Below, piece after piece: positions 12,082 through 36,329 of a stretch of 37,355 nt of DNA (positions within the stretch are counted from its first letter, which is position 1; each line of letters opens with the position of its first letter). The position numbers and the translations under genes were made by a program. The notes beneath the pieces are model-generated. The model saw only the letters and a program-made list of their open reading frames with translations. It was not told the origin of the DNA and did not search any database. This stretch comes from a virus: the IMG/VR virus record IMGVR_UViG_3300043119_000092, positions 1 through 37,355 of that record. One strand, 5' to 3'.

Positions 12082-12255
12082 ATGATATATGAGCTTGATA
12101 GTCTCGACCTCAAACTTCTTAAAAAATGTAGGAAAGCAGCTAGCTTTATTGAAGACGGCATTCCTCTGAAGGATGTGCTAAATGAAGAAGATCTTAGTGA
12201 GTTAGTATATCTCTTGATAACGATAATTGATACAGAACAGAAAGAAAACAATTAA
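12082..12255 (+). CDS. Hypothetical protein, 57 aa
   Basis: ATG 12082 has a good AGGAG eight bases upstream. The product is helical and acidic (MIYELDSLDLKLLKKCRKA; then LNEEDLSELVYLLITIID). Its stop overlaps the reductase ATG as TAATG, giving tight coupling. It could be an accessory to the reductase, which is only positional inference. Confidence 0.65.
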   Translation: MIYELDSLDLKLLKKCRKAASFIEDGIPLKDVLNEEDLSELVYLLITIIDTEQKENN

Positions 12256-14174
12256 TGAACGCGCCAATGACAACTACAACAATGACCCCGTACCAGACAT
12301 ACATTGCAAAGAGCCGATACAGCCGATACCTAGACGATAAAGGTCGTCGTGAACACTGGCATGAGACAGCCTATCGCTACATGGATTTCATGAGCAAGCA
12401 TCTTCGGACTAACCATAATTACACCATTGATGGCCCTCTCTATGACCGTCTGTTCAATGCTATCGTTAACTTGGATGTGATGCCCTCGATGCGCTCAATC
12501 ATGACCTCAGGTGATGCTTTAGCTCGTCAGAACGTAGCAGGTTACAACTGTTCATATCTCCCCATTGATGACCCTAAGGCCTTCGATGAAGCTATGTACA
12601 TTCTCCTGTGTGGCACAGGTGTAGGTTTTTCCGTGGAGCAGAAGTATGTCAACCGTTTACCTGAGATTCCTGAAAAGCTGTATGAGTCTAATACTGTGGT
12701 TTACGTTAAAGACTCCAAAGAGGGATGGGCAAAGGCATTACGACAAGTTATGGCCCTCCTATGGGCAGGTGAAGTCCCTCGATGGGATGTCTCTAGTGTT
12801 CGCCCGGCAGGTACACGACTCAAGACGTTTGGTGGTCGTGCAAGTGGCCCAGAACCTCTTGTGGAATTGTTCAAATACGTTGTGGCTAAATTTAAGTCTG
12901 CCTCAGGTCGTAAGCTCTTCTCCATCGAAGCCCATGACATTCTGTGCAAAATCGGAGAGGTGGTTGTTGTCGGTGGTGTAAGACGCTCAGCAATGATTAG
13001 CTTGTCTGACTTGGGTGATGACCGTATGGCTAAGGCCAAAGCAGGAGCTTGGTGGGATGGTAACGGTCAACGAGCCTTGGCTAACAACTCAGCAGTGTAC
13101 GATGTCAAGCCTGACGTAGGCCAGTTTATGCGTGAATGGAGCAACATTTATGAAAGTCACTCAGGTGAGCGTGGAATTTTTAACCGTTACGCTTCAGAGA
13201 TTCAAGCGTCTAAGAATGGTCGTCGTGTACTCCATAAAGAGTGGGGTACTAACCCTTGTTCTGAAATTATTCTCCGCCCTTACCAGTTCTGCAACCTCAG
13301 CTCAGTTATTGTTCGTGCGGGGGATACATTGGAGTCTCTTAAAGAAAAAGTCGCTATTGCGACAATCTTGGGAACCTTCCAATCGACGTTGACCAACTTC
13401 CCGTACCTTCGTAAGGTGTGGCAGACTAACACTGAGGAAGAGCGTTTGTTGGGTGTCTCCATGACAGGTATCTTAGACAATACCTTGCTCAACAATGCCT
13501 ACGATAAAGAACTGCCAGCTCGACTTGAGGAACTAAAGAATGTTGCTGTGGATACTAATAAGCATCTTGCTGCTGAACTTGGGATCAATGTGTCTGCTGC
13601 GATCACTTGTGTCAAACCCGAAGGAACTGTTAGCCAGCTTACTGGTACTGCTAGCGGCATTCATCCTCAACATAGCGCTTATTTCATTCGTCGCGTACGC
13701 TCTGATGCCAAAGATCCAATCACTGATTTCCTGAAGTCAGCAGGTTTCCCTTGGGAGCCTTGTGTCATGAAGCCTGAGTCAACAGCTATCTTCTCATTCC
13801 CTATGAAGACACCAGAGGGTGCTCGTCTGCGTGAGGACTTGTCAGCTATTGAACACTTGGACTTGTGGTTGACATTCCAGCGCCACTGGTGTGAGCATAA
13901 ACCTTCAGTGACTATCTCAGTGAATGAGAATGAGTGGCCTAAGGTAGGCGCTTGGACATGGGAAAACTTCGATGAAATCACTGGTGTATCATATCTTCCG
14001 ATGGACGGTGGAACTTATCGCCAAGCTCCCTATGAGTCTATCAATGAGGCAGAGTATGATCGACTGGTATCTGAGATGCCTAAAGAGATTGATTGGGAAA
14101 ACATGACTGAGAAGACTGATAATGTGGAAGGAGCCCAAACCCTTGCATGTGTCGCTGGAATTTGTGACATTTAA
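12255..14174 (+). CDS. Ribonucleotide reductase, class II (adenosylcobalamin-dependent), monomeric type
   Basis: Converts ribonucleotides to deoxyribonucleotides with a cobalamin-generated thiyl radical. 639 aa; the Lactobacillus enzyme has 739. Seen: NVAGYNCSYL (first redox Cys, near residue 99), GTGVGFSVE, the active-site loop NPCSEIILRPYQFCNLSS with the radical Cys and second redox Cys, CVKPEGTVSQLTGTASG, and the C-terminal pair CVAGIC that re-reduces the site. No beta subunit gene is present, as expected for class II. The enzyme needs host cobalamin. An HNH gene starts on its stop codon. Confidence 0.95.
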   Translation: MNAPMTTTTMTPYQTYIAKSRYSRYLDDKGRREHWHETAYRYMDFMSKHLRTNHNYTIDGPLYDRLFNAIVNLDVMPSMRSIMTSGDALARQNVAGYNCSYLPIDDPKAFDEAMYILLCGTGVGFSVEQKYVNRLPEIPEKLYESNTVVYVKDSKEGWAKALRQVMALLWAGEVPRWDVSSVRPAGTRLKTFGGRASGPEPLVELFKYVVAKFKSASGRKLFSIEAHDILCKIGEVVVVGGVRRSAMISLSDLGDDRMAKAKAGAWWDGNGQRALANNSAVYDVKPDVGQFMREWSNIYESHSGERGIFNRYASEIQASKNGRRVLHKEWGTNPCSEIILRPYQFCNLSSVIVRAGDTLESLKEKVAIATILGTFQSTLTNFPYLRKVWQTNTEEERLLGVSMTGILDNTLLNNAYDKELPARLEELKNVAVDTNKHLAAELGINVSAAITCVKPEGTVSQLTGTASGIHPQHSAYFIRRVRSDAKDPITDFLKSAGFPWEPCVMKPESTAIFSFPMKTPEGARLREDLSAIEHLDLWLTFQRHWCEHKPSVTISVNENEWPKVGAWTWENFDEITGVSYLPMDGGTYRQAPYESINEAEYDRLVSEMPKEIDWENMTEKTDNVEGAQTLACVAGICDI

Positions 14175-14635: not shown

Positions 14636-14788
14636 ATGATGATAGATTTTGATTGGTCAGGTGGTTTCGTCGTAGGTATCATCCATACTGACGAGGCAAT
14701 CGTAGAGAGCGAAGAAGGACAGTATCAGTTTTGCACTGCCATTGTCATCCATTTAGGATTGTTTAACATAGCTATACTGTTTAACTAA
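14636..14788 (+). CDS. Conserved small phage protein, 50 aa
   Basis: The pattern MMIDFDWSGGFVVGIIHTDE, then EGQYQFCTAIVIHLGLFNIAI, belongs to a short protein I recognise from many phages (WxGGFxxGIxHTDEA...AIVxHLGxxN), often close to nucleotide-metabolism genes. Function unknown; the hydrophobic end could touch membrane. ATG 14636 follows TTGGAGACATTGGAC. It is the last gene of the rightward block. Confidence 0.75.
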   Translation: MMIDFDWSGGFVVGIIHTDEAIVESEEGQYQFCTAIVIHLGLFNIAILFN

Positions 14789-14801
14789 TAGCAGACAACA
14801 A

Positions 14802-14840
14802 AAAGCCTCTAATGATCTCAAAAGGAACATTAGAGGCTTT
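14802..14840. terminator. Bidirectional terminator between the convergent blocks
   Basis: Perfect 13-bp arms AAAGCCTCTAATG (14802-14814) and CATTAGAGGCTTT (14828-14840) enclose a 13-nt loop. The stem is flanked by T-rich sequence on both strands: TTTATTGT rightward, and TTTTTGTTGT when read leftward. It sits exactly between the last rightward gene (14788) and the last leftward gene (14870). Confidence 0.92.
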
Positions 14841-14869
14841 ATTGTATCTGTTATCAGGCTTACGCCTTA

Positions 14870-25619: not shown

Positions 25620-25808
25620 TTACACCTCTTCAGATGTAATATCAACTTTCTTTGGACGACCTGCTTTCTTAGGGACTTCCTCCACCACTTCAGGAACAAC
25701 CTCTACAACAGGCGTGTAGTCAGGATGGTTCTTCATTGAGTCAATATCAACTTGATGAACAAAGGTAACGGTATTACCGCTCTGGATACAACGAAAGGTA
25801 GCTGTCAT
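25620..25808 (-). CDS. Small protein with AT-hook-like tail, 62 aa
   Basis: The N-terminus (FRCIQSGNTVTFVHQVDIDS) and the segment MKNHPDYTPV form a small beta domain seen in other phages just after the capsid gene. The tail has AGRPKKVD, a short AT-hook-like motif also present in the terminase small subunit (AGRPKKGE). No strong ribosome-binding site is seen; the structured RNA at 25827-25920 lies just upstream and may affect translation. Confidence 0.65.
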   Translation of the reverse strand: MTATFRCIQSGNTVTFVHQVDIDSMKNHPDYTPVVEVVPEVVEEVPKKAGRPKKVDITSEEV

Positions 25809-25826
25809 GGTAGTGTTAGTCCAAGT

Positions 25827-25920
25827 GTAAATAGACCAAAGGAGCCTCCCTTGTGATCGCAGCGAAGCGAGAACTTGTGATCCTCACTCCGTTGCGGGGA
25901 AGCCCCTTCAGTCTATTTAC
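25827..25920 (-). ncRNA. 94-nt fold-back RNA element after the capsid gene
   Basis: In the leftward transcript, the two outer 24-nt arms (25920-25897 and 25850-25827) pair at all 24 positions, four of them G-U. Inside is a second 13-bp stem (25895-25883 with 25871-25859; one A-C mismatch, two G-U). GATCACAA occurs twice: in the 11-nt apical loop and as the 8-nt side of an asymmetric internal loop. Wobble pairs are favoured in the leftward RNA only: the same inner stem would have two mismatches in the other strand. It starts three bases after the capsid stop. It has no U-tract, so it is not a plain terminator. Confidence 0.75.
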
Positions 25921-25922
25921 CC

Positions 25923-26861
25923 TTAAGCTGGAACTGCCAAGGCAACGCTAGAGTAGTCACGCAACTCAGCAACACCGTACAGAGTGTCAGCAGTAAACAG
26001 AGTACCGAGGTATTCTTGCTTGTACTGAGTCTGTGAACGGATACCAACTTGCTCGACCAACACGAATGCGTCCTTGTGAGCCATCAGAGCGATACGAGCT
26101 GGTTGAGCTGTACCTGAACCATCGTTGGCATCAGTAGGTGTGTCAGCGTTGGTAGACACGTACACTTTCACGCCGTACACATCACCGATTTCACCGTTAC
26201 GGATGGTGTTAGAACCACCTTGTTCACCCACGAAAGCTTGCTCAGTGAAACGAGCCAAACCCATCAAGGTGTTACGAGTCGATGGAGGAACGATGAAGAA
26301 ACGACCGTCCATAGGCACATCAGAGTCATCCAAACGCTGGATAGAACGACGAATTGCAGCGTCAGTCAGAGCAGCTTGGTTGTCAGTGGTGTAGTCATAA
26401 GCGGTAGTACCGTCAGAACCGATGAAAGCACCAGCGTAACGAGCACCAGCGCCACCTTGAGACAAACGACCCAAACGGATGATGTCTTGGTCAACTTGCT
26501 TAGCCAATGCGTAACCAGCGTCATCTGTGTAGAATGAACGCAGGCTAGACAGAGCTTGAGCTTCGACGATATCTTCGATCATGCGGCTGTATTCGTAGTG
26601 CTTGTTAATCAAAACTTGCACTTCAGTTTCAGTTGCAGCGATCAAAGTCACTTGAGTAGATGCAGCCTTGACAGAAGCAGAACCACGTGTAGGGCTAGGA
26701 ATGTGAACGGTGTCACCTTTCTTACCCTTGAAGCTCATTTTCTTGACGAGGTTAGCAGCAACCAAGTTTTTCTTGTAAGCAGCTACGATTTCATCAGACC
26801 AAATTTCTGGAATGAACGTTGCTGCGGTTGTTACGGTTACGTGTGATGTTCCGAGACCCAT
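25923..26861 (-). CDS. Major capsid protein, 312 aa
   Basis: It starts MGLGTSHVTVTTAATFIPEI, with WSDEIVAAYKKNLV then the loop KGKKGDTVHIPSPTRG. The body contains MIEDIVEAQALSSLRSFYTD and FFIVPPSTRNTLMGLARFTE, features of the podovirus coat proteins with the HK97 fold. The scaffold gene lies directly upstream in the transcript, as usual. TAGGAGTATTT gives a strong ribosome-binding site. The structured RNA begins three bases past its stop. Confidence 0.92.
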   Translation of the reverse strand: MGLGTSHVTVTTAATFIPEIWSDEIVAAYKKNLVAANLVKKMSFKGKKGDTVHIPSPTRGSASVKAASTQVTLIAATETEVQVLINKHYEYSRMIEDIVEAQALSSLRSFYTDDAGYALAKQVDQDIIRLGRLSQGGAGARYAGAFIGSDGTTAYDYTTDNQAALTDAAIRRSIQRLDDSDVPMDGRFFIVPPSTRNTLMGLARFTEQAFVGEQGGSNTIRNGEIGDVYGVKVYVSTNADTPTDANDGSGTAQPARIALMAHKDAFVLVEQVGIRSQTQYKQEYLGTLFTADTLYGVAELRDYSSVALAVPA

Positions 26862-28671: not shown

Positions 28672-29772
28672 TTAGTTAGATTCAAGTTGTGCGACACGTT
28701 GACGCAGGGATTGGATTTCCTTGACCAGCATAGGTACAAGTTTGGAGTAATCAACTGCCATCATTTGTTCTGTGTCTTCAGGTTGATAAACAGCTTCAGG
28801 GGCGCTTAATAACAACTCTTGTGCCACAAAACCATAGCGTTGGTGTGAGCCGTTTGTTTTCCAATCAAATTTACGCACTTGCAAAGAATCAATTAGGTTA
28901 GAAGCAGAATCAGCATCTAAGATATTTTCTTTTAAGCGTTGGTCTGAAGTAGTGTTATACAGGGTAGTAGAACCGTTTGTTGTAATACTTCCAACACCTG
29001 CGCCACCAGAGCCTGCTGAAAAACCAATTAAAGTAGTTGAGCCTGATGTGGAGTTCCAAAGACCTAAAAGAATTGAATTCTCACCTCTAATTCCAGCACC
29101 TGTTCCTCCAGTTCCATCGGTTGTGCGAACACTTAATATTTCACCACTGCCATAAACGTTTGAAGTAGTGTTAATGCGGAAGCTACCACTGGAGTCGATA
29201 CGGGCGCGTTCTGCCGCAGCAGTAAAGTCGTAAAAGCGCATAGCGCCATCAGAGAAAATACCAAAGTCTCTGTTTCCAGAGCTGTTCATTCTGATACCAG
29301 CATTTGCTCCGTTAGTGCTAATAGCTGAAATATATTGGGTTGAAGTGCCGCTGATTTCAAAATGCTGAGTAGGACTTGTAGTACCAATACCCAAATTACC
29401 ACTAGCATCAAGCGTCATTGCTTGGGTGAAAGTAATTGCGTTTCCTGCTGTGCCTGATGAGGCTCTTTGCCAAACATGAAGACCGTCAGCAGAATAATAC
29501 TGGGCTGCTGGTGCGCTAATCTTGTAAATCCAACTTGAGCCGTTGTAGTACGCATTGCTATTAACGTAAACGCCACCACTGTCATAAGAAGAAACAGAGT
29601 TTCCCCTTGACCCAATTTCAATAGCTTTAAAGACGCCCCAAGCACTAGGAGTAACACCCACACCCACGTTCTGTGATGTATCAATAGTTACAGCAGAGGT
29701 TGTACCGTTAGTTTGGAGGACAAGTGAGCCTGAACTAGCTACGCCTGTGGAATTAAGAGAAGTTTGTGCCAT
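28672..29772 (-). CDS. Tail fibre/spike with S74 self-cleaving chaperone domain, 366 aa
   Basis: The body is built of short beta repeats (IGIGTTSPTQHFEISG; ARIDSSGSFRINTTS). The C-terminus is an intramolecular chaperone of the Peptidase_S74 (endosialidase-type) family: SDQRLKENI, LQVRKFDWKTNGSHQRYGFV, AQELL, then a trimeric coiled coil (LVKEIQSLRQRVAQLESN). The domain helps trimer folding and cuts itself off at the Ser of SDQRLK. It is a likely receptor-binding protein. Confidence 0.88.
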   Translation of the reverse strand: MAQTSLNSTGVASSGSLVLQTNGTTSAVTIDTSQNVGVGVTPSAWGVFKAIEIGSRGNSVSSYDSGGVYVNSNAYYNGSSWIYKISAPAAQYYSADGLHVWQRASSGTAGNAITFTQAMTLDASGNLGIGTTSPTQHFEISGTSTQYISAISTNGANAGIRMNSSGNRDFGIFSDGAMRFYDFTAAAERARIDSSGSFRINTTSNVYGSGEILSVRTTDGTGGTGAGIRGENSILLGLWNSTSGSTTLIGFSAGSGGAGVGSITTNGSTTLYNTTSDQRLKENILDADSASNLIDSLQVRKFDWKTNGSHQRYGFVAQELLLSAPEAVYQPEDTEQMMAVDYSKLVPMLVKEIQSLRQRVAQLESN

Positions 29773-29816
29773 GTTTTATATTACCTAGTTAAAGATTAGT
29801 TAGGGAGTTAAGCCTG

Positions 29817-31538
29817 TCAAGGCGTCCCATTAGAGACAATGTTGGTAGCAGAAGTGATAACACCTGTGGAAGACATAGAGGCAATCGTTGTAGCTCCGTA
29901 CTTGAACAACAACTTACCACCTGACTCCTCAATAGTGAAGTTAGTGGATAGTAACTTAGGTGTCGATGCTGCTGTTCCTGTTGTGTTCTGATTCAAAGTA
30001 GGGAAAGTACAGTTAGCTAAGTTACCTGAAGTAGGAGTACCTAAAAGAGGGGTAACTAAAGTAGGGCTAGTGGATAGAACATTATTACCGCTACCTGTTG
30101 AGGTTGTAACACCTGTACCGCCATTGGCTACTGGAAGCGTACCGTTAACACCTGCTGTAAGCGATACAGTGTTCTTTTCCCACAGAGAAGTAGAACCATT
30201 CCAAACAATAGTCTGACCTGTTGTGGGGCTTTGTGCGCTTACGTTATGAAGCTCATCTAGCTCGTAGCCGTTCTGAACCTTAACAAGCAACTTACCCTGA
30301 GTTGGGTGAGCGTGGGCTACAACTGCGACATACACTAGATGATCAGGTGCGTAAGGCTTTGTAGCCGTCAGAGTCCCTGCTGTGGTGGGGCTAAGATAAA
30401 GCTGAGCACCATCTGTATACGCTGAAGTATTGAGATTACTAATTAAGCCAATGATAGTTACGTAACCATTGGAATTGTTAGCTAAGTCGCTAGTAATCAA
30501 ACCCAAGGTCTGAGCTGAGGTTGAGTCCCCTGTAGCTATAGCCTTAGAGACAGTCGGTATCTGGCCTGTAGCACCTGAGATGTAGACTGCTGTACCTTTA
30601 GTTAGAGTAGCACCAGTTGTGTTACGTACTTGCTCAACTAGAACTGAAGCTGGTGAAGTCTGGGATACTGCTAAGTCTACGGCTGTACCTACAGTAGTTA
30701 CGACAATGCTTCCATCGGCAGAGGCTATTGATCCTACAGCGCCTACGCTAGAAGCAGTCAATACAACAGCGCCTGTATTGCCATTAACTGAGGTAACTAA
30801 GTTAGTTTGGTCAATCTTCTGCCAAGCTGTGCCGTTATAGATAGCCCAATCACCTGTAACCCAATCAGTGATACCGTTTAAGTCCGTAGAACCGCTAACG
30901 CTAACAACGTAGTAGTAATTAGATGTTCCAGTGCTAGAAGCTAAAGTAGGAGTGTTTGTAGAGGCATTCCAAGTACCTTGGTAGCTCAAACCACCTGAAA
31001 CAGCGTTAATCTGTGTCTGAAGACTGTCAATAGCGTCCAATACGTACTGAGAAGTACCACCACCGTTGCCGATAACCTTGATCTTCTCAGCGACATCCAT
31101 AGGGACGACTTCGCCAGCGTTGATCTCGTTACCGTTAGAGAGCGTAATGATCAAAGAGCCATCGAAGTCGATACGAGCATCGGTAACACCTGTGCCGTCT
31201 ACACCGTCAACGCCATCTTTACCGTCTAAACCGTCTCTACCGTTAGCTCCATCAAGCCCACGGAGCCCTGTATCACCTTTTTCGCCCTTAGCGCCGTTGA
31301 TACCGTCTACACCATCTCTAATCGCCGCAGATTTTACTGCGATGTCAGCGCTAATCTCCGCATAACGCTCTTCAAGGTCAGTTTTGATCTTCTTGATGGC
31401 GTCAACGACCAGCTTTGCGTACTGACCTGTCTCCAAGGATGCTTGCTTTGCCTTGGAAGATGCAACATTCTCTTGAATAGCCTTAACCAGCGCTAATTTC
31501 TCAGCGTCAGTCATGGTTTCAATGTCTTGTAGTATCAT
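29817..31538 (-). CDS. Tail fibre with collagen-like segment, 573 aa
   Basis: A helical N-terminus (about residues 1-70, probable tail attachment and coiled coil) leads into about 14 uninterrupted Gly-X-Y triplets (GVDGINGAKGEKGDTGLRG and on, about residues 75-117). Beta-rich receptor domains follow (SYQGTWNASTNTPT; WVTGDWAIYNGTAWQKI) with VTSVNGNTGAVVLTAS motifs typical of fibre shafts. The end ATNIVSNGTP resembles the end of the 90-aa protein at 22686. It overlaps the portal stop by four bases. Confidence 0.85.
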   Translation of the reverse strand: MILQDIETMTDAEKLALVKAIQENVASSKAKQASLETGQYAKLVVDAIKKIKTDLEERYAEISADIAVKSAAIRDGVDGINGAKGEKGDTGLRGLDGANGRDGLDGKDGVDGVDGTGVTDARIDFDGSLIITLSNGNEINAGEVVPMDVAEKIKVIGNGGGTSQYVLDAIDSLQTQINAVSGGLSYQGTWNASTNTPTLASSTGTSNYYYVVSVSGSTDLNGITDWVTGDWAIYNGTAWQKIDQTNLVTSVNGNTGAVVLTASSVGAVGSIASADGSIVVTTVGTAVDLAVSQTSPASVLVEQVRNTTGATLTKGTAVYISGATGQIPTVSKAIATGDSTSAQTLGLITSDLANNSNGYVTIIGLISNLNTSAYTDGAQLYLSPTTAGTLTATKPYAPDHLVYVAVVAHAHPTQGKLLVKVQNGYELDELHNVSAQSPTTGQTIVWNGSTSLWEKNTVSLTAGVNGTLPVANGGTGVTTSTGSGNNVLSTSPTLVTPLLGTPTSGNLANCTFPTLNQNTTGTAASTPKLLSTNFTIEESGGKLLFKYGATTIASMSSTGVITSATNIVSNGTP

Positions 31539-36021: not shown

Positions 36022-36246
36022 AGGGCTCCTGTGAACAGATTGAGGTCTCCTTTTCTCCCATGATCTAACCTGTCCCCAATTAATTAGGTAACTTCTTTGA
36101 TTTCATTAGACTTTTTAGTCATGATGTCTTTTTTCTTTATTCTACTTTTTTGTGTACTTAGGAGGCTCCCACAAAAGTAAAACATAGTAGCTACCCCTCC
36201 CCCCCTATCAAGTACTAAGTAGAACTACGTAGGTAGTAACACCTAT

Positions 36247-36284
36247 GTGCTTAAAAAGTAAGCATAGTGCTTAAAAAGTAAGCA
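36247..36284. repeat. Two tandem 18-bp repeats, 20-bp period, each a dyad
   Basis: GTGCTTAAAAAGTAAGCA occurs perfectly at 36247-36264 and 36267-36284. Each copy holds the inverted repeat GCTTA-5 nt-TAAGC. A 20-bp period puts both on the same helix face after about two turns. This is the signature of paired binding sites for a dimeric regulator or of origin iterons. Confidence 0.75.
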
Positions 36285-36329
36285 GTGAGGGACAATGAAG
36301 CACCTATAAAGTACTACCTAGATTACAAA

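Follow-up and report, generated by a model that had tools for sequence, protein, structure and literature searches.

A long RNA hairpin behind the major capsid protein gene of a 37.4-kb virus record, with an inserted 41-nt tip and a lost terminator signature

The major capsid protein (MCP) gene of the window (the whole stretch of DNA analysed here, a 37.4-kb virus record) is followed by a long hairpin, which is a feature of RNA from the capsid-gene strand rather than a palindrome in DNA. The position of this hairpin behind the capsid gene is conserved among relatives, selection acts on the sense RNA, and the window's clade has lost the terminator signature carried by most relatives. We consider it somewhat better than an even bet (probability about 0.55) that the element, descended from a terminator, now serves as a 3'-end and processing barrier; its tip is an exchangeable module. 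It probably sets the amount of capsid message relative to the genes behind it. A role at the 3' end of the capsid mRNA had been proposed in a preliminary description of this DNA and is the best reading of the conserved position.

The late genes of the window are on the minus strand: terminase, portal, scaffold-position protein, capsid, and then small and tail genes. Two tail-fibre-like genes (28672-31538), one of them with collagen repeats, are located between the portal and scaffold-position genes. A B12-dependent-type ribonucleotide reductase (12255-14174) adjoins T7-like primase-helicase, DNA polymerase A and endonuclease I genes. A palindrome with 33-nt arms (14785-14857; 79% complementary) lies between the rightward early and leftward late blocks and looks like an ordinary bidirectional terminator. 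The right-end region, which has no long ORFs, contains a 23-nt inverted repeat (36230-36320; 74% complementary, 45 nt apart). No tRNA was found in the window, and an Rfam 15 search of the window gave no match above the gathering scores, placing the hairpin in no known structured RNA family. A phage RNA polymerase was not matched among the window proteins searched (small and unsearched ORFs fall outside this search); a 797-aa protein that is relevant here has no family match. A promoter scan behind the stem gave no convincing promoter. The features of the locus are as follows:

25923-26861, minus strand: MCP gene, 312 aa (phrog_267 major head protein, E 2e-52; Pfam Phage_capsid_2 and Gp10A-like)
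25897-25920, minus strand: 5' arm of the outer stem, from the fold, clade list and covariation count; its CTGAAGGGG core is common to the clade
25857-25897, minus strand: inserted inner hairpin, 41 nt, CCGCAACGGAGTGAGGATCACAAGTTCTCGCTTCGCTGCGA; L123, L137 and L138 carry the same insert
25875-25879, minus strand: apical loop CACAA of the inserted hairpin, from the fold; part of the first octamer GATCACAA (25875-25882)
25851-25856, minus strand: TCACAA, the original loop of the host hairpin and now a one-sided internal loop, from the empty-site comparison
25827-25850, minus strand: 3' arm of the outer stem, GGGAGGCTCCTTTGGTCTATTTAC, from the fold; a residual three-U run lies within the stem
25620-25808, minus strand: small downstream gene, 62 aa, kept in relatives; no family match

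The minus strand from 25920 to 25827 folds to -59 kcal/mol (z -10.0), and none of 200 shuffles was equally stable. The fold agrees with the preliminary description on the outer stem (24 bp, no mismatch, four G-U pairs) and on a single inner-stem mismatch (A/C), while the inner stem described as 13 bp is resolved into 12 bp and 4 bp flanking that mismatch. The inner-stem G-U pairs would be A-C in the opposite-strand RNA, as had been pointed out. The capsid stop codon ends at 25923 and the stem begins two bases later (given earlier as three, a trivial correction). The reported lack of a U-tract holds, in that no strong tract was found beyond a run of three. The octamer GATCACAA, said to be displayed in both loops, is indeed present twice (25882-25875 and 25858-25851); the apical loop leaves only CACAA unpaired, and the one-sided loop AUCACAA. 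As a genome-wide motif the octamer was rejected: its four copies in the window, compared with 1.5 expected, were reached in 10 of 100 shuffles, and the two further copies are unremarkable. The small gene at 25620-25808 is without a clear ribosome-binding site in the window (interval 25790-25826), as described; L099 lacks one too, and an AGGA- or GAGG-type site is located just behind the stem in most other clade members.

Capsid relatives and pattern scans yielded 185 usable loci with 158 distinct post-capsid segments, from sequence collections that may omit records very near the window. A DNA search against named phages gave no match, and a protein search returned only distant capsid relatives (below 60% identity). 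The hairpin is the first fold after the MCP stop codon in all 158 segments, with the stem starting 0-20 nt past the stop in 157 and farther away in the remaining one; z is below -2 against mononucleotide shuffles in 89% of these hairpins. A canonical terminator occupies this position in Anabaena phage A-4L, an isolated distant relative, and Phormidium phage Pf-WMP3 has a weaker hairpin at the corresponding post-capsid place. Three relatives (L001, L091 and L095) have an extra small gene between the capsid gene and the clade stem, and the stem is still ahead of the conserved small gene; because this position is kept, the element marks the border between the head genes and those that follow. In L001, a short UUCG hairpin of the capsid gene's own is found behind that gene. 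The extra gene present in some relatives (L001:6013-6336) encodes a 107-aa protein of unknown function (phrog_23388).

In most relatives, the post-capsid hairpin looks like a standard intrinsic terminator. Most of the 127 relatives outside the window's clade have a U-run of about five behind the hairpin, and 66% of the 127 have a terminator score above 0 (0/50 shuffles and 0/50 antisense sequences). The clade of the window (31 members, CTGAAGG...CCTTTG) has a stem extended to about 20-24 bp and a U-run reduced to three, and only 3% of its members score above 0 (median -10.8). Because clade members were partly gathered by patterns spanning CTGAAGGGG and CTCCTTTGG, letter conservation there is sampling-biased. 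The window has the stable GC-rich hairpin of an intrinsic terminator in the RNA of the upstream gene and lacks both the U-rich tract after the stem and a positive score (-6.2; nT 2.99, T-run of three).

Selection on the RNA was assessed by a strand test that gave G-U and A-C the same score in the search for arms, avoiding sense-strand folding bias. Non-Watson-Crick pairs in this both-strand-neutral search of the 158 distinct relatives comprised 311 G-U and 39 A-C, from which we conclude that the structure is maintained as capsid-strand RNA. Hairpins richer in G-U numbered 134 versus two richer in A-C, and the sense fold was more stable than the antisense fold in 142/157. Two-sided changes fell in 28 cells when the arms of 20 distinct clade members were compared, against 9.5 in shuffled and 0-4 in slid controls, these being kin sequences and so not independent events; the changes are mostly at the tip and base, both outside the search patterns. 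The earlier proposal of selection on the leftward transcript is thus upheld by the pair counts and the compensatory changes, and relatives contain both the element and such changes.

Comparisons among clade members show precise, repeated tip insertions and swaps. Judged from these comparisons, the hairpin of the window is an ordinary one with a 41-nt CACAA-looped second hairpin in its loop. The insertion is precise in three filled and empty pairs (L138 and L239, L137 and L231, L123 and L002, respectively): in each, a prefix of 6 and a suffix of 13 make up the entire 19-nt empty tip. The partners share the tip and are not direct ancestors of each other. The insert is 98-100% identical among carriers and at most one base different from the window's copy, although DNA identity between the MCP genes of the most distant carriers is only 74-78%. 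A tree of 28 capsid sequences shows 7 state changes for the seven carriers (four with the type 1 insert and three with type 2), a separate one for each. Other clade members have a 17-nt insert of similar design at the same loop, and CACAA is kept in both insert types. L123 and L002 come from one metagenome sample and have capsid genes that are 82% identical and the same tip alleles, with and without the 41-nt insert respectively, a pattern that suggests exchange in place.

The tip also differs between near-identical phages. Between L138 and L233, identity is 99% across the 600 nt upstream and 97% downstream, but their tip stems and inserts differ; L047 and L115 are identical at 592/600 positions upstream, with a tip that is 17 nt longer in one. 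Both arms of the tip stem change together in L233 and L239 and in L235 and L240. Tip turnover is cassette-like, through short-tract recombination, template switching (PMC8794818) or both, between which these data do not discriminate; for identical inserts to be reused in distant phages, exchange between phages is needed. An assembly chimera was judged unlikely from the records, as four separate records carry the insert at one and the same base and the stretches exchanged at the tip span just 15-20 nt, with the flanks on either side unchanged.

These comparisons also explain the doubled octamer: the second copy derives from the loop of the original hairpin and the first from that of the inserted one. 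On this evidence a conserved two-site binding motif is not needed, and the doubling is not evidence for a two-site protein-binding RNA, another copy having arrived with the inserted CACAA-looped hairpin and CACAA being the commonest loop here. Target-site duplication was rejected as the source of the octamer: filled and empty sites differ by exactly 41 nt, with no duplicated target bases.

The preliminary description had offered a miniature mobile element as an alternative, and part of that suggestion stands, as the 41-nt inner hairpin moves between phages; scattering through the viral and prokaryotic genomes searched was not seen. Among 2.9 million viral contigs the insert was found in only three further contigs, all in this same loop, and a search of 84,980 prokaryote genomes did not find its 22-mer core. 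A REP, MITE or other dispersed palindrome would be expected in numerous copies at unrelated sites, and no such scatter was found in these collections. A host repeat was rejected as the source of the insert, with a loose palindrome pattern giving 41 scattered, unrelated matches (about chance level). The shorter insert core gave six extra matches in viral contigs, without the palindrome or a capsid match, and the type-2 pattern matches in L284 and L285 are unrelated. We regard as rather unlikely a reading in which the outer hairpin keeps its own function and the inner one, a miniature palindrome that is selfish or spreads passively, uses this loop as a place to land. Near-identical inserts on four separate branches with exact empty-site counterparts, the divergence of the carriers' MCP genes, a state change for every carrier and the 17-nt inserts of similar design would all be accounted for, but short-tip swapping between related phages gives the same pattern without a mobile element, and the insert is confined to this loop. 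A more elaborate and quite unlikely proposal is that terminator-type hairpins behind phage capsid genes are docking sites for 17- and 41-nt hairpin modules that enter the CACAA-type loop precisely and each bring a new CACAA loop, leaving the site receptive; such a loop-specific module would be self-regenerating, exchanged among phages and able to tune capsid expression. A translational operator or protein-binding RNA that shows CACAA loops to a phage or host protein is improbable. CACAA is the commonest apical loop (38/158) and survives in both insert types, but the site may instead carry a UUCG (25), CAAAA (16), GAAA or GCAA loop, CACAA also caps other terminator-like hairpins 400-445 nt downstream, and the hairpin is behind the capsid gene, not over a start. 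Most improbable is tip diversification as escape from a host sensor of structured phage RNA, comparable to CBASS cyclases, which sense a structured phage RNA; such RNAs can trigger CBASS (PMC10686824). The tips do vary between flanks that stay 97-99% identical, but simple mutational or recombinational turnover suffices.

Termination and processing are weighed here from sequence. It is possible, though unlikely, that the hairpin is a partial intrinsic terminator in which the GC-rich upper stem and UUUGGUCU halt some polymerases, the lower stem being extra. The UUU directly behind the GC core in 29/31 clade members, an exact conservation that runs counter to the processing reading, also fits weak termination, as do the nT value of the window and the canonical terminators of most relatives. 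The scores of the window and its clade are against this, as is the pairing of the U-run within a longer stem that is kept through the clade. A processing site and 3' barrier is preferred because the clade has lost the terminator signature. In this preferred reading, a long double-stranded stem would stand in place of the intrinsic terminator, with the U-tract reduced to three U inside the stem. Polymerase would mostly read through the stem; RNase III or an enzyme like it would probably cut the stem, which would afterwards block 3'-5' exonucleases, leaving a stable, abundant capsid message set apart from the low-copy tail genes behind. The 24-bp outer stem and the inner stem appear long enough for a putative RNase III site. 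Upstream mRNA can gain stability from a terminator hairpin, and stems of excessive length have been discussed as recruiting RNase III (PMC11696848). The 41-nt CACAA-looped hairpin entered the original TCACAA loop, most likely via recombination with, or copying from, related phages. We infer processing, stabilisation and the manner of insert movement alike.

A single polycistronic message must yield far more capsid protein than tail proteins, and one small RNA element may set the capsid/tail ratio in many uncultured phages that lack a detectable phage RNA polymerase. The filled and empty pairs and the tip swaps, in phages 97-99% identical nearby, provide a natural series on the origin and turnover of long stems (by template switching or recombination), which are poorly explained by point mutation.

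The PeSL cassettes of T4-type phages are small stem-loop regulatory modules that are swapped between related phages, as the tips described here appear to be; PeSLs carry a promoter and occupy many loci, whereas the insert is 41 nt long, with no promoter seen, and is found at a single locus. Template-switch evolution of hairpins (PMC8794818) similarly changes both stem arms together and creates new perfect hairpins in one step. It was inferred there from rRNA and microRNA histories, whereas here the same insert recurs in distant phages, so exchange between phages is needed besides template switching. The RNase III stems of T7-like phages also span about two helical turns, include an internal loop and lie on a polycistronic late transcript, although cleavage is putative here and the sequences are unrelated as far as known. 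Intrinsic (rho-independent) terminators are matched by most relatives, with a GC hairpin, a U-tract and UUCG or CACAA loops at this place, whereas the window's clade departs from them in U-tract and score. In T7, one terminator (T-phi) is located directly behind capsid gene 10 and is read through to express genes 11 and 12 (PMC5592923). The hairpin of the window is likewise a single strong one directly behind the capsid gene, ahead of co-oriented, low-copy genes that have no convincing promoter of their own (gene map and promoter scan) and need read-through. It differs in its weak U-run, longer stem and variable nested tip, and has no phage-encoded RNA polymerase to stop among the window proteins searched. 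By analogy with the read-through of T-phi, setting the capsid-to-tail mRNA ratio would be the simplest role for the element.
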